A DNA stretch of 64,000 nt from assembly GCA_021773015.1 (NCBI GenBank), contig JAJFKW010000006.1, forward strand, positions 124,001 through 188,000, given 5' to 3'. The DNA comes from Woeseia sp. (lineage in GTDB: Bacteria; Pseudomonadota; Gammaproteobacteria; Steroidobacterales; Woeseiaceae). Below the pieces are notes generated by a model that was not told where the DNA came from, searched no databases, and saw only the letters and a program-made list of their open reading frames with translations. This document shows, in pieces, positions 23,820 to 46,783 of this stretch; the stretch's first letter is position 1, and each line of letters starts with the position of its first letter. Position numbers and translations under genes: made by a program.

Positions 23820-24812
23820 TTAGTAATCAACCAGTTCACGCAGAACGCTGGTGGCATAGCCGCCTCTGCTTAACTCGAATGACAACTCCAAAACGTCATC
23901 TGCATAATTCCATTTGAGGTTTCGTGCTGGCAATCTCAACGCTCGCCGAGATGCCGTTGCGTGGCGGCCCAAATCAACGGCCATTACCGCGTAGGCTTCA
24001 TCCTCCGGCGTTTCCGTTGTGCCCTTTCCCCATAAGGGTCCGGACGGATGAATATCCATCTGCAAGCAGCGCCGCTCAAGATCGTCATCCATCGCGTCGA
24101 CGGAGAAAACGCTACCGGAGCCGTCCAGCGCCGCAATGTCGCCGTCGTGCAGCGTGTTCCATGTCCTACCTACGACACGCACCGCCAAATAATCGTTAAA
24201 CAGCAGCGAACGCGCCGCAGATATTGCAATCGAGCGTTTCTCTCGTGCCAATCGTTTTCCGGCGAAAAGGCTCGTGGCAAGCGCGATATTTCTGCCTTCG
24301 ATACCGAACCGCTGCTCGCCAAAATAATTCGGTACGCCAATGTCTGCAAGGATAGAAAGGCGCTCATTCAATTGCCCACGGTCTGTTACAAGCTTTCGCA
24401 AGACTATCGAAAAGTGATTGCTGCTATGTGCGCCGCGCCTGAGCTTTCGAGAATTACGTGTCACTTGCAGTATGCGTACGCCATCAGGATCGAAGGTCTG
24501 CCAATCCGCTGTCGGTCCACCAGGACGCCTAACGCTAAACCACTGGCAAGTCACAGCATGCCGGTCCTTCAATCCAGAATAGCCAACATCACGCGCTGCA
24601 ATGCCAGCGAATGCTGCTAGCTGCCGCGCGAGCCAAGCAGTATTGGTTTCGCGTTTCTCGATGAACAAGAAATCGTGTTCCCCGCAACCGTCCGGCTCGA
24701 ACCCAAGCTGCTCAATGACAGCAAAGTCATCCGCTGTGTGGCGGATTACGGCGTGAGCTAGCGGCCCGCCATGCGCGCAGCCCCAGCGATTTCGCATCGT
24801 ACTGAAATTCAA
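23820..24812 (-). CDS. truD: tRNA pseudouridine synthase D
   Basis: Makes pseudouridine at position 13 of tRNA-Glu. It has 330 residues. The catalytic Asp is in VGYSGLKDRHAVTCQWFSV, followed by the TruD-specific insertion (NYFGEQRFGIEGRN). It lies directly after ftsB with a 33-base gap, where many gammaproteobacteria have ispD and ispF in between. It is followed by the convergent smr and the surE-pcm unit. Confidence 0.96.
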   Translation of the reverse strand: MNFSTMRNRWGCAHGGPLAHAVIRHTADDFAVIEQLGFEPDGCGEHDFLFIEKRETNTAWLARQLAAFAGIAARDVGYSGLKDRHAVTCQWFSVRRPGGPTADWQTFDPDGVRILQVTRNSRKLRRGAHSSNHFSIVLRKLVTDRGQLNERLSILADIGVPNYFGEQRFGIEGRNIALATSLFAGKRLAREKRSIAISAARSLLFNDYLAVRVVGRTWNTLHDGDIAALDGSGSVFSVDAMDDDLERRCLQMDIHPSGPLWGKGTTETPEDEAYAVMAVDLGRHATASRRALRLPARNLKWNYADDVLELSFELSRGGYATSVLRELVDY

Positions 24813-24845: not shown

Positions 24846-25133
24846 TCAGTCGGACAAGGCAGCGGCCGGCACAACTTGATAAAAAGTCTCATTCTTGCCA
24901 ATCATGCCAAGATTGGTGCGTGCCCGCTCTTCGGCCGCTTCGCGTCGCTGTTTCAGGTTGATGACCTCCGCCTCCAACGCATGATTACGGTCAATCAGAT
25001 CTTGGTTTTGCACTCGTTGCTGATTTACCGCAAGACGTAGCGCGCGCGTTTTGCCGTAGCCGTCCGCGGTAAACCAGAGTTGCAGCTGCATGCTGCCTCC
25101 GGCAATGATCAGTAAAGCGATGAGCCCGCGCAT
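24846..25133 (-). CDS. ftsB: Cell division protein FtsB
   Basis: Bitopic divisome protein that forms a complex with FtsL and FtsQ. It has 95 residues from the ATG at 25133 (a TTG at 25142 is also possible). A single N-terminal transmembrane helix (RGLIALLIIAGGSMQLQLWF) is followed by a coiled coil rich in Gln, Asn and Glu (NQQRVQNQDLIDRNHALEAE). The C-terminal segment ERARTNLGMIGKNETFYQVV matches the family (R...LGM...ET). It sits 24 bases after eno, the conserved eno-ftsB order. Confidence 0.94.
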   Translation of the reverse strand: MRGLIALLIIAGGSMQLQLWFTADGYGKTRALRLAVNQQRVQNQDLIDRNHALEAEVINLKQRREAAEERARTNLGMIGKNETFYQVVPAAALSD

Positions 25134-25157
25134 TGTCGTCAATTTGTTCCTTTGTGC

Positions 25158-26450
<1,293 letters not shown>

Positions 26451-42389: not shown

Positions 42390-43742
42390 TCACGAAAATG
42401 GTCCAGTGAAATCATTATAAAAAGCGAAACTCATCAACATTAACAGCGCAAATATGCCGATTTGCTGGCCAATTATTTGCGCTCGATCCGATAGTGGACT
42501 GCCTTTAAGACGCTCTATTGATTGATAGAGAATTTGTCCGCCATCGAGTATTGGAATCGGCAATAAATTCAGGATGCCAAGACCAATACTAATCGTCGCC
42601 AAGAGCTTGACGAAAGACTCAAAACCACGTTCTGCGGATGCCCGAGCAAACCGGGCAATACTGATCGGTCCGCTGATATTACGTGCCGAAACGTCGCCCA
42701 TGACCATTCCTGCCAGCAAGCGACCCGTTGACGTAATGGTTGACCAAGTTTTTTGAATCGCCTCATTGCCCGCGGAAAAAAATCCGTACTTACGCTTATA
42801 GCGTAATTCTTCAATATCGAGTCCCAGCGTGACACCCAGCACGCCATATTGCTCACCATTTGACTCGCTGCTCTTGACCGTTGTAACCGTTTGAAATTCT
42901 CGGCCGTCGCGAACATAACCGATAGATATGGTTTGCTCTGCAAGTGTTGTCAGTATTCTTTTGGGATCGTCGAGGTCGTAAACCGGTTGTCCGTCGATAC
43001 TGGTAATTCGGTCGCCGATCTTGAGACCGCCGGCTGCGGCGGCACTATTTTCATTGACCTCCGCGAGAATTGGAGAACGCAGCAGCTGAAATCCAAGACC
43101 GTCGAATAAGTATCCCGGTTCCGTCAGACGTGCACTGGCATCACCGACCTGGATAATCACGTCGCGCTGCCGGCCGTCGTCGTTCTCTACGCGAAGTGGA
43201 ATTTCGCCGTCCGACACCATTTCGCCAATCATCGCCAGAAGCACAGAATCCCAATCTGCGGCAGCCCGGTCGCCAACCGCCACAATTCGATCGCGATATT
43301 GAAGTCCTGCTGCCGACGCAAAACTATCTTGCTCGACCTCACCGACTGCTGCCCTATATGCCGTAACGCCGCTCGCGAACAACGCCCAGTAAATGACAAT
43401 CGCCAGCAAAAAGTTAAACATCGGTCCGGCCAGCAATACTGCAATTCGCTGCCAAGTCGGTCGGTGGGTGAATGCACGACCTCGATCTGCAGCGTCAACG
43501 CGCTGCTCTCTCTCATCTAAAAATTTGACGTAACCGCCGAGCGGAATTGCGGAAACACAATACTGCGTGCGATCCGGATCTTTTCCGTACCACGACCAAA
43601 TAGGCTTGCCGAATCCAATGGAAAAGCGCAACACCTTCATGCCACACCAGCGTCCGACAATATAATGGCCATACTCGTGGACCGCGACCAGTACACTGAT
43701 TGCAACGATGAACCACAACGCACTGCCCAAAATTTCACCCAT
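42390..43742 (-). CDS. rseP: Site-2 protease RseP
   Basis: Intramembrane zinc protease that cleaves RseA after DegS, freeing sigma-E. It has 450 residues. The HEYGHYIVGR zinc motif is in the first transmembrane helix, and two PDZ domains follow (for example GDRITSIDGQPVYDLDD). The second active-site motif is NLLPIPILDGGQ. It precedes bamA as in E. coli and carries its own sigma-E-type promoter. RseA and RpoE are also encoded in this window, about 34 kb away. Confidence 0.97.
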   Translation of the reverse strand: MGEILGSALWFIVAISVLVAVHEYGHYIVGRWCGMKVLRFSIGFGKPIWSWYGKDPDRTQYCVSAIPLGGYVKFLDEREQRVDAADRGRAFTHRPTWQRIAVLLAGPMFNFLLAIVIYWALFASGVTAYRAAVGEVEQDSFASAAGLQYRDRIVAVGDRAAADWDSVLLAMIGEMVSDGEIPLRVENDDGRQRDVIIQVGDASARLTEPGYLFDGLGFQLLRSPILAEVNENSAAAAGGLKIGDRITSIDGQPVYDLDDPKRILTTLAEQTISIGYVRDGREFQTVTTVKSSESNGEQYGVLGVTLGLDIEELRYKRKYGFFSAGNEAIQKTWSTITSTGRLLAGMVMGDVSARNISGPISIARFARASAERGFESFVKLLATISIGLGILNLLPIPILDGGQILYQSIERLKGSPLSDRAQIIGQQIGIFALLMLMSFAFYNDFTGPFS

Positions 43743-43816
43743 AAATCGCCTCCGCGCCGAATCGCCGGTGCCAATCCCCGCCTATCATCGTCGCAAGCCT
43801 ACGATGGACAAAGCAT

Positions 43817-43845
43817 TTTGACTGGCGCAGGCAAACGCAGTTCCC
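43817..43845 (-). promoter_or_regulatory. Sigma-E-type promoter upstream of rseP-bamA-skp-lpxD
   Basis: Reading on the minus strand, GGGAACTG (43838-43845) is followed by TCAAA (43817-43821) with 16 bases between GAACTG and TCAAA. This fits the sigma-E consensus (GGAACTT, about 16 bases, TCAAA/TCTGA) with one mismatch in the -35. Predicted start is near 43810, leaving a 68-base leader to rseP. It lies in the 149-base gap after cdsA. Confidence 0.6.
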
Positions 43846-43891
43846 ACAGATTCTGGCAGCAGCGGGATGAATGAACGCTGAACACGGCATT

Positions 43892-44698
43892 TCATTGCGG
43901 CAACCTCAGCACGCCTGGGCCAAACCAGCTCAAACCGAGAGCAAACAAAGGCGCCGCCGCTGCGATACTGTCAGCCCGGTCCAGAAAACCGCCGTGGCCT
44001 GGAAATAGCGTGCCACTGTCCTTCAGTCCCGCCTGCCGCTTGAATATGCTGACGGTTAAATCACCGATAATGGAGCCAATCGCGACCGCCAGACAAAGCG
44101 GAATTATGGTGATATATGAAAATCCCAGAAAGTAACTCTCGACTGCCACCACAAGGGCCACCGTCACCAAACCGCCAATTGCACCCTCCCATGTCTTTCC
44201 TGGGCTAATCTGCGAGGCAAGTTTCACCTTGCCGAATGCCTTGCCGGAAAAGTAAGCGCCGATATCGGCGGCCAACACGATTCCGAGCATAAATAGCAGC
44301 AACCATGGGCCTTGCAAAAACAACCAATCCAGGGCGACATACGCAGGCACGATCACTAACAGACCACAGAGCCAAGTCACAATACTCGGGACAGGCGTGG
44401 GGTAAAACCAGGTCCACAAGAGCGCCAACAGCCACCATACGAGCGCTACCTGAAACACCAGCACTCGACTGTCAAGACTATCCGCCAAGAAAAATGCGGG
44501 CACGATAACCGCAGCGACCGCCAACAAGTACGCGTAACGCACTACGTTGTTCGCTTTGAGGAATCCTGACCATTCCCAAGCTGCCAGCAATAACAACAGC
44601 AATATTACGACTCGAGCTGCGATTTGCGGCACCGCGAACAGCACGAGCAGGAGGATTAAACCTGCAATGATTGCAGTAATGATTCTGTCTTTTAGCAT
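43892..44698 (-). CDS. cdsA: Phosphatidate cytidylyltransferase
   Basis: Makes CDP-diacylglycerol, the precursor of phospholipids. It has 268 residues and many membrane helices. The C-terminal signature reads GDLTVSIFKRQAGLKDSG then LFPGHGGFLDRADSIAAAAP. Its ATG shares one base with the uppS TAA (TAATG), so the pair is translationally coupled. In relatives dxr usually follows; here rseP follows after 149 bases. Confidence 0.97.
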   Translation of the reverse strand: MLKDRIITAIIAGLILLLVLFAVPQIAARVVILLLLLLAAWEWSGFLKANNVVRYAYLLAVAAVIVPAFFLADSLDSRVLVFQVALVWWLLALLWTWFYPTPVPSIVTWLCGLLVIVPAYVALDWLFLQGPWLLLFMLGIVLAADIGAYFSGKAFGKVKLASQISPGKTWEGAIGGLVTVALVVAVESYFLGFSYITIIPLCLAVAIGSIIGDLTVSIFKRQAGLKDSGTLFPGHGGFLDRADSIAAAAPLFALGLSWFGPGVLRLPQ

Positions 44699-45456
44699 TA
44701 GGCCGCGCCGACTTGATCGCCAGTATGGCCGTAACGCCGTTGCCGACCCGAAAAGTGGTGCAATGCCGCGTCAAATTCAGCGGTGCCGAAATCTGGCCAC
44801 AGCTCATCAGAGAAAAAAAGTTCTGCGTAAGCAATATTCCACAGAAGAAAATTGCTAATGCGTTGCTCTCCACCCGTTCGAATCAGCAAGTCGGGGTCTG
44901 GAACACCGCCTAGTTGCAATGCGTTCGCTAGAACAGTTTCATCGATTTCTTCCGGCATAAGATCACGTTCCTGAACGCGCGCCACAATATTTTTGGTCGC
45001 GTTTACAACATCCCAGCGACCACCGTAGGCAACCGCGATAAATAACTGCAGACCGTCATTCGCGGCGGTCTTCAATTCTGCCTCGGCAATTTTTTTGACC
45101 AAGCCGGCCTGAAGCTGTTCTCTAGCACCGATAAAACGGAGTCTCACATTATTACGATGCAGCTTCGTGACTTCTCGTTGCAAAGCCTCCAAAAATAATT
45201 TCATAAGGCTGCTGACTTCATCGCGTGGGCGGCTCCAGTTTTCGCTGCTGAAGGCGAATAACGTCAGGTGCGCGACGCCTTGTTCGGCTGCACGCTCGAC
45301 CACAGCACGTACCGACTTCACGCCAGCACGATGACCAGCGTGACGCGGCATCGCCCGTTCGCTTGCCCAGCGACCGTTGCCATCCATTATGATGGCGACA
45401 TGTTGCGGAATCCTTTGGTCTGTTTCGATCACATAAATCGCCGTATCTAATTTCAA
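44698..45456 (-). CDS. uppS: Undecaprenyl diphosphate synthase
   Basis: Cis-prenyltransferase making C55-PP for peptidoglycan and O-antigen. It contains HVAIIMDGNGRWASERAMPR with the catalytic Asp, LTLFAFSSENWSRP, and the C-terminal DLLIRTGGEQRISNFLLWNI. The listed start is a TTG at 45456; a GTG at 45432 just before the conserved part is an alternative and neither has a strong ribosome site. It needs isopentenyl diphosphate, although none of the usual neighbouring MEP genes is present. Confidence 0.96.
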   Translation of the reverse strand: MKLDTAIYVIETDQRIPQHVAIIMDGNGRWASERAMPRHAGHRAGVKSVRAVVERAAEQGVAHLTLFAFSSENWSRPRDEVSSLMKLFLEALQREVTKLHRNNVRLRFIGAREQLQAGLVKKIAEAELKTAANDGLQLFIAVAYGGRWDVVNATKNIVARVQERDLMPEEIDETVLANALQLGGVPDPDLLIRTGGEQRISNFLLWNIAYAELFFSDELWPDFGTAEFDAALHHFSGRQRRYGHTGDQVGAA

Positions 45457-45474: not shown

Positions 45475-46032
45475 CTAAACTTCCATTAAGTCACTTTCCT
45501 TTTCGGCCAGGATTGCATCGATTTTGGCAACGTGCTGGTCGGTAATTTTTTGTATTTCTTCTTGCGCACGATGCTCGTCGTCCTCGCCTATCATTTTTTC
45601 TTTTAATAGATCCTTGACGTCCCCTAGCGCGTCGCGACGAATATTTCGAATGGCGACGCGCCCACCCTCTGCTTCATTGCGAACAACGCGAATGAGGTCT
45701 TTTCGCCGTTCTTCCGTTAGCGGCGGCAACGGAACTCTGATAACCGTTCCTGCTGTTGCCGGGTTAAGACCCAGATCGGAACTCATGATGGCTTTCTCGA
45801 TCACCTGAACCATGTCTTTTTCCCATGGCGACACGGCAAGCGTTCTCGAATCCTCGACATTAACGTTCGCAACCTGATTAAGCGGCACCTGACTACCGTA
45901 GTACTCCACCGTTATGTGATCGAGTAAACTCGTGTGCGCGCGCCCCGTACGAATTTTCGTGAGGTCCTGCTGTAACGAAGCGATACTCTTATCCATTCGG
46001 ACACTCGCGTCTTTTTTTATCTCATCAAGCAC
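45475..46032 (-). CDS. frr: Ribosome recycling factor
   Basis: Splits post-termination ribosomes together with EF-G. It has 185 residues from a GTG (46030-46032) with an excellent GAGGAAG seven bases upstream. The N-terminus [20 protein letters not shown] aligns with known RRF, followed by [20 protein letters not shown] and [20 protein letters not shown]. The upstream open frame to 46083 overlaps pyrH and is not family-like. Confidence 0.97.
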
Positions 46033-46060
46033 ATTTCTTCCTCTCGAATTGCGGCGTTGG

Positions 46061-46783
46061 CTACGCCGTAACCAAAGTGCCAACCTCTGAATCTGTCATG
46101 GCCTTAAGCAATGCATCTGGTTTTGTCATATTGAAAACACGTAACGGCAAGTTATTGTCCCGGCACATTACTACCGCCGTCGCGTCCATCACATTCAGTT
46201 TATCCACTAGAACCTGATCAAACGAAACCGTATCGAACATGGCCGCTTCAGAATTGAGCGCGGGATCAGAGTCGTAGACGCCGCTCACCTTGGTTGCCTT
46301 CATCAGCACATCGGCACCAATCTCAATTGCCCGCAAACTTGCCGCTGTATCGGTCGTAAAAAATGGGTTGCCGGTACCTGCAGCCAGTAAGACGACGCGA
46401 CCTTTTTCGAGATGACGAACTGCGCGGCGGCGAATATAATCTTCGCAAACTTCGTGGATCTGCAGAGCAGACATCACACGCGCGTAAACTTCCTGCGATT
46501 CGAGAGCATCTTGAATCGCCAGCGCATTCATGACTGTTGCCAGCATGCCCATGTAGTCGCCGGTAACCCTATCCATACCGCTGCGTGCAAGGCCTGCACC
46601 GCGAAATATGTTACCGCCACCGATGACGATGGCTACCTCGATGCCCAACTTGCGAACGTCAGCAACCTCGGCCGCGATTCGCTGGATCACGTCTGGCTCG
46701 ATGCCATAATCCAAATCACCCATCAATGCCTCACCGCTGAGCTTAAGCAGCACGCGGCGGTAGAGCGGTTTGGCTTCGGTCAT
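46061..46783 (-). CDS. pyrH: Uridylate kinase
   Basis: Phosphorylates UMP to UDP; hexameric amino-acid-kinase fold. It has 240 residues, with [15 protein letters not shown] at the start, [20 protein letters not shown], and the later [20 protein letters not shown] with the phosphate-binding loop. It lies 28 bases before frr in the conserved rpsB-tsf-pyrH-frr order. Confidence 0.98.

Follow-up and report, generated by a model that had tools for sequence, protein, structure and literature searches.

Missing dxr and ispDF at their usual loci and a fused HMGR-mevalonate kinase point to replacement of the MEP pathway by the mevalonate pathway in a Woeseia lineage

A cdsA-rseP junction without dxr

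Why is dxr missing between cdsA and rseP, its usual site, in a genome that retains uppS, and by what route would such an organism obtain IPP? The window, i.e., the whole stretch of 64,000 nucleotides analysed here (C6:124001-188000), shows the following features around the junction:

42390..43742, - strand: rseP, site-2 protease (TIGR00054, 322.3 bits, cut-off 147.6)
43743..43891, no strand: junction, usual site of dxr; 149 bases, no dxr remnant
43817..43844, - strand: promoter-like element GGAACT-N17-TCAAA, directed toward rseP; single match in 64 kb against 0.21 expected, an expectation to be read in light of the pattern having been picked after the junction had been inspected
43892..44698, - strand: cdsA, phosphatidate cytidylyltransferase (PF01148, 176 bits, cut-off 24; under the NCBIfam cut-off)
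44698..45456, - strand: uppS, isoprenyl transferase (TIGR00055, 290.5 bits, cut-off 109.6)
45475..46083, - strand: frr, ribosome recycling factor (TIGR00496, 242.1 bits, cut-off 149.1)

A sequence-only reading of the window had counted 149 non-coding bases between cdsA and rseP, and the open reading frames together with the sequence give exactly this number: on the - strand cdsA ends at 43892, the ATG of rseP lies at 43742, and the gap spans 43743-43891. It had also described frr, uppS and cdsA as contiguous, which is correct, uppS and cdsA overlapping by one base and frr lying 18 bases upstream of uppS in the window's ORF listing. The claim that dxr is absent from its usual positions was borne out by tblastn with Dxr queries from five relatives that use the MEP pathway, in which the best E values were 0.59 over the 64 kb, 0.53 in the gap alone and 0.28 in the gap with 200-base flanks, all of them noise. 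The presence of a predicted UppS implies that IPP would still be consumed.

With the window UppS as a query against GTDB genomes, 80 named loci were surveyed, the top-ranking ones among 591 confirmed; 69 of these 80 held both cdsA and rseP, and the other 11 were without a full junction. In 63 of the 69 loci dxr lies between the two genes (1181-1378 bases between match ends, and 2958 in one locus), and in six it is missing (103-185 bases). Given this proportion, a dxr-less junction is more than chance. The six junctions are L009, L010, L011, L012, L015 and L049, titled as Woeseiaceae MAGs (L010, L011 and L015), gammaproteobacterial MAGs (L009 and L012) and Legionella wadsworthii (L049). The sequence-only reading had proposed a comparison of the junction in close relatives, and the same dxr-less gap was found in five of them.

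We then compared 16 genomes behind the named loci, six without and ten with dxr at the junction. All six dxr-less genomes carry mevalonate genes, and four of them (L009, L010, L011 and L015) encode a full fusion of HMGR and MVK, at 49-53% identity; in the L012 genome, the end of a fusion is visible at a contig edge. Among the ten genomes with a junction dxr, nine gave no match to the fused protein and one (L016) gave a weak match of 66 residues. At E values up to 1e-30, dxs was found in none of the six dxr-less genomes; it was present in all three of the genomes examined from the ten with a junction dxr.

The junction also holds promoter-like sequences. We take the GGAACT-N17-TCAAA element to resemble a sigma-E promoter, and the same gap carries a TTCAG/TTCA pair. 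A scan of 68 named gaps (L038 was omitted, being too long) found this pair in four, L009, L010, L011 and L015, each without dxr, and a looser GGAACT/C pattern likewise in four, namely L009, L011, L015 and the dxr-bearing L072.

A second gap and the genome-wide state of the MEP pathway

Another hole in the same pathway is found in the window at the usual place of ispD and ispF:

23820..24812, - strand: truD (best model NF002153, 372.1 bits, cut-off 413)
24846..25142, - strand: ftsB, with truD directly after it, the usual place of ispD-ispF (PF04977 (DivIC), 65 bits, cut-off 28.9)
25158..26450, - strand: eno, upstream of ftsB (TIGR01060, 632.6 bits)

The three genes are adjacent, and the 33 bases between ftsB and truD cannot accommodate ispD or ispF, both of which are absent from this locus, the one place where they were sought. 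Thus, the independent ispDF hole named in the sequence-only reading does exist.

The genome of the window comprises 4,839,556 bases in six contigs and is 98.88% complete. Throughout it, neither dxr nor ispH gave a match at E values up to 0.001, and nothing exceeded the dxs cut-off (best E = 2e-23, 83 bits, cut-off 466). In 14 control genomes the same searches passed their cut-offs in nine cases for dxr, nine for ispH and ten for dxs. The best dxs-like match of the window's genome was considered as a split or distant DXS and rejected, as it passes the cut-off for the pyruvate dehydrogenase E1 beta subunit and adjoins ORFs reading, by eye, as E1 alpha and E2. The sequence-only reading had argued that a second hole in the same pathway makes a chance rearrangement a weaker explanation and had suggested a genome-wide search for MEP and mevalonate genes. 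The outcome agrees with it: no dxr elsewhere accompanies a complete MEP set, dxs and ispH stay below their cut-offs, and mevalonate genes are present.

Mevalonate genes of the window's genome

The mevalonate genes lie outside the window, on C1, where MDD, a PMK-like kinase and an HMGR-MVK fusion follow each other in this order on one strand and HMGS is encoded on the other; IDI-1 lies elsewhere on C1:

C1:1966950-1967540: IDI-1, type-1 IPP isomerase (TIGR02150, 143.3 bits, cut-off 105.8)
C1:3061244-3062206: MDD, 320 aa (TIGR01240, 241.7 bits, cut-off 171.4)
C1:3063210-3065447: HMGR-MVK fusion, 745 aa (class II HMGR at residues 1-386, mevalonate kinase at 447-722)

For the MDD protein, the phosphomevalonate decarboxylase model NF040704 remains far under its cut-off (130 vs 475). 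The HMGR search itself matched at C1:3063327-3064367; the HMGR domain scores 360.7 bits with TIGR00532 (cut-off 260) and the MVK domain 237.7 bits with TIGR00549 (cut-off 163). The PMK-like GHMP kinase (336 aa) fits TIGR01220 best, with 81 bits under a cut-off of 165.7, and its best solved match is Lin0012 (3k17). HMGS (490 aa) reaches 157.7 bits with TIGR01835, under the cut-off of 360.4, is over the cut-offs of Pfam HMG_CoA_synt_N and _C, and has the motifs HACLGG (from 122) and FMHRPY (from 264), the Cys and His of which we take to be functional. Neither PMK nor HMGS reaches its NCBIfam cut-off, and their putative assignment draws on the best-scoring family, Pfam, motifs and gene position. 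IDI-1 adjoins a squalene/phytoene synthase and a polyprenyl synthetase. A type-2 IDI was rejected as the isomerase: its matches occur in 38 of the 40 genomes introduced below and exceed the cut-off in G025 only, not in the window's genome.

Such a gene set would take HMG-CoA to mevalonate and on to mevalonate-5-phosphate, both steps occurring on one fused polypeptide, and mevalonate-5-phosphate via the diphosphate to IPP, which IDI-1 would isomerize to DMAPP, feeding UppS. We consider it very probable that the organism, having lost the MEP pathway, makes its isoprenoids via mevalonate, and that dxr and ispDF are gone from their usual places because the one pathway has been replaced by the other. 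This explanation rests on which genes are present or absent, how far the domains are covered, which residues are conserved and how the genes are distributed together across relatives; from these data we infer the enzymatic activities, the direction in which flux runs and whatever benefit the fusion brings.

The HMGR-MVK fusion protein

Residues E83, K267, D283 and H385 of the HMGR half align to E83, K267, D283 and H381 of Pseudomonas mevalonii HMGR (1qax), for whose Glu, Lys, Asp and His residues we assume catalytic roles, and an alignment of 11 fused proteins shows no variation at any of the four. In the MVK half the GHMP motifs are in place: G539-G541, S543 and D586 are invariant in the same 11 fusions, and S542, one Ser of the GLGSS motif, varies. 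The predicted model of the fusion has a mean pLDDT of 77.2 and a pTM of 0.46, with residues 376-436 poor and the mutual placement of the halves not to be trusted. Its HMGR half matches solved class II HMGR with 47% identity but an rmsd of 8-14 A, and its MVK half matches solved MVK with an rmsd of 2.5-5 A. A phmmer search of the PDB (E up to 1e-10) returned 22 sequences of at most 458 residues, each covering one half only, and no fused HMGR-MVK. By joining consecutive enzymes, the fusion may bring a benefit.

In most of the family's stretches examined the gene order is FPPS, MDD, PMK, HMGR-MVK, IDI-1 and HMGS; the window's genome departs from it in having IDI-1 and FPPS together, away from the cluster. 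Two genomes extend the fusion to three domains: HMGR-MVK-IDI1 in G007 (936 aa, L120:7403-10213, + strand) and PMK-like-HMGR-MVK in G031 (an ORF of 1,199 aa in an open frame of 1,413 aa, L121:5558-9157, - strand). On an HMGR tree of 43 rows, the 41 fused sequences form a group distinct from the two stand-alone class II sequences; given the long branches and just two outgroups, this topology is no proof that the fusion arose once. The tree left out ten loci without a row longer than 300 aa (seven stand-alone HMGRs, perhaps of class I, and three contig-edge pieces). The fusions of L009, L010, L011 and L015 fall inside the window's family on this tree, which suggests that the family is Woeseiaceae. 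Separate HMGR and MVK matches in G218 and G408 were rejected as such, both running into contig ends.

Co-distribution across the order and the class

HMGR, dxr, type-2 IDI, ispH, dxs, type-1 IDI and PdxJ were compared in 40 genomes: that of the window, 24 of its family and 15 of its order (one per further family), representing 16 families. HMGR matched in 35 genomes and the fusion is present in 31, in 30 as one open frame and in G018 as two pieces at contig ends. IDI-1 is over the cut-off in exactly these 31 genomes, of which 23 are at least 90% complete, and no dxr, ispH or dxs match over the cut-off occurs in any of them. Among the nine genomes without the fusion, seven carry both dxs and ispH, and six of these seven carry dxr as well. 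By family, the fusion occurs in nine, dxs in seven and both in none (Fisher p = 2e-6 for dxs vs the fusion over the 40 genomes, with related genomes not being independent).

Several genomes deserve a comment. Neither G001 (94% complete) nor G019 (84% complete) has the fusion or dxs, ispH or dxr over the cut-off; G001 has a stand-alone HMGR and a fragment of IDI-1 near a contig start. A single dxr match, under the cut-off (18.6 bits, E = 9.4e-4), was found in the fusion-bearing G017. All 40 genomes have at least sub-cut-off dxs matches, which are of the transketolase or pyruvate dehydrogenase kind where examined. As DXS candidates, the best matches of G017, G031 and G026 were rejected, scoring highest as transketolase with none over a cut-off; that of G017 sits among ORFs reading by eye as sugar metabolism. 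Since dxr coexists with a stand-alone HMGR (in a frame of 391-453 aa) in G027, G032 and G033, the marker is the fusion and not HMGR alone.

In a class sample of 369 genomes, the fused protein was matched at least in part in 90 and over its full length in nine, three in the window's own order and six outside it in three families; in G218, from a fourth family outside the order, the fusion is cut by a contig end. Over the cut-off, dxs was found in two of the six outside-order genomes (G078:C14:161858-163684 and G271:C16:35363-37111) and not in G156, G208, G316 or G368. The fusion thus does not imply loss of the MEP pathway everywhere; G078 and G271 possibly have both pathways or retain dxs for B6.

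Alternative explanations

Might the mevalonate genes be catabolic, serving mevalonate degradation as in P. mevalonii, while isoprenoids are taken up? The HMGR of the window's genome does fit best a model named degradative and NAD-type (TIGR00532), and its closest solved chain is the P. mevalonii enzyme, which we take to be catabolic. However, MVK forms one protein with this HMGR, the genes for MDD and a PMK-like kinase lie in the same cluster, IDI-1 tracks the fusion precisely through the 40 genomes, and UppS needs a supply of IPP; moreover, IDI is reported to be essential solely in mevalonate-dependent organisms (PMC3847144). We therefore regard a catabolic role as very improbable.

It is slightly less probable still that dxr has merely moved, or lies in an unassembled part, with the MEP pathway intact. 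An assembly in six contigs at 98.88% completeness leaves some room for this, but dxs and ispH were not found over their cut-offs either, ispDF is missing at a locus of its own, and the same absences recur in all 31 fusion-bearing genomes, including the 23 most complete. Least credible of all is a type II DXR (a DXR-like oxidoreductase) in place of dxr with the rest of the MEP pathway kept: DXR-II does replace DXR-I in some bacteria (PMC3847144), but with neither dxs, the step before, nor ispH, a step after, over the cut-off, it would serve nothing. Loss of the MEP pathway in favour of the mevalonate pathway accounts for both holes.

PdxJ without Dxs

The known reaction of PdxJ consumes DXP, the product of Dxs. 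Shortly before the left end of the window there is a PdxJ match (G000:C6:123099-123797), beside an ORF that reads as recO. Over the cut-off, PdxJ occurs in 38 of the 40 genomes. Of the 31 fusion-bearing genomes 30 have it, among them all 23 that are at least 90% complete; the exception, G005, is 82% complete. If PdxJ works as known, there should be an unrecognised source of DXP (a new enzyme, or else a transketolase or pyruvate dehydrogenase with promiscuous activity) or uptake of DXP. That DXP continues to be made in this lineage after the loss of its synthase is a tentative reading, one from which we lean slightly away. Two published surveys touch on it: one of MEP genomes argues that some species probably have an alternative to Dxs (PMC10663253), and one of B6 genes takes PdxJ as the signature by which the DXP-dependent route is recognised (PMC9997740). 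With PdxJ present and Dxs absent, the question of a further DXP source becomes testable in cultured members.

ThiG was considered as a second DXP consumer and rejected, as it gives the DXP argument no general support: seven of the 40 genomes are over a low Pfam cut-off and only four matches are strong (G028, G031, G034 and G039, 367-374 bits), those of the window's genome, G026 and G038 being weak (24.6-27 bits over at most 58 residues). The same family search was over the cut-off in all 14 control genomes. Three mevalonate genomes with strong ThiG (G028, G031 and G039) have the lowest PdxJ scores of the 38, 209-234 bits vs at least 285 elsewhere.

Significance and comparison with known systems

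The MEP pathway is treated as the gammaproteobacterial default and as an antibiotic target. Key genes of it are missing in nine of the 16 sampled families of one order, including the family that holds the Woeseiaceae-titled MAGs; Woeseiales are reported to make up 1-22% of 16S sequences retrieved from marine sediments (PMC7082342). Within the open-licence literature, with most subscription papers lying outside it, we found no description of the HMGR-MVK fusion or its nine-family spread, nor of mevalonate use in Woeseiales. The isoprenoid terms tried are absent from the Woeseiales genome papers PMC7082342 and PMC12175321, and PMC6043863 names mevalonate in its reference list only. Given its predicted activities, the fusion might give terpenoid engineering a two-step enzyme ready for use, and the fusions of 936 and 1,199 aa resemble a pathway welded together stepwise.

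Replacement of the MEP pathway by the mevalonate pathway in gammaproteobacteria is already known from Legionella and Coxiella. C. burnetii and L. pneumophila are reported to possess mevalonate genes and to lack those of the MEP pathway (PMC9803151); a 2026 review states that the Legionella species analysed lack a recognisable PMK and mostly HMGS too (PMC13001223). L. wadsworthii resembles the window's lineage in its dxr-less cdsA-rseP junction and in having no dxs. It differs in that HMGR (a 435-aa frame) and MVK (a 295-aa frame) are encoded separately, some 7.8 kb from each other, with 41% and 24% identity, respectively, to the domains of the window's genome, whereas in the window's lineage the two form one protein, mostly within one cluster.

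The class II HMGR of P. mevalonii (1qax) shares 47% identity over 422 columns of a structural match with the HMGR described here, as well as the same catalytic residues; unlike that stand-alone enzyme of 428 aa, however, ours continues into a mevalonate kinase at 447-722. MvaE of Enterococcus is a bifunctional acetoacetyl-CoA thiolase-HMGR; in both systems HMGR is joined to the enzyme of an adjacent pathway step. In MvaE the partner is the upstream thiolase, while in the window's lineage it is the downstream kinase, and, unlike MvaE, two relatives add a further enzyme to the fusion, IDI-1 in G007 and a PMK-like kinase in G031.
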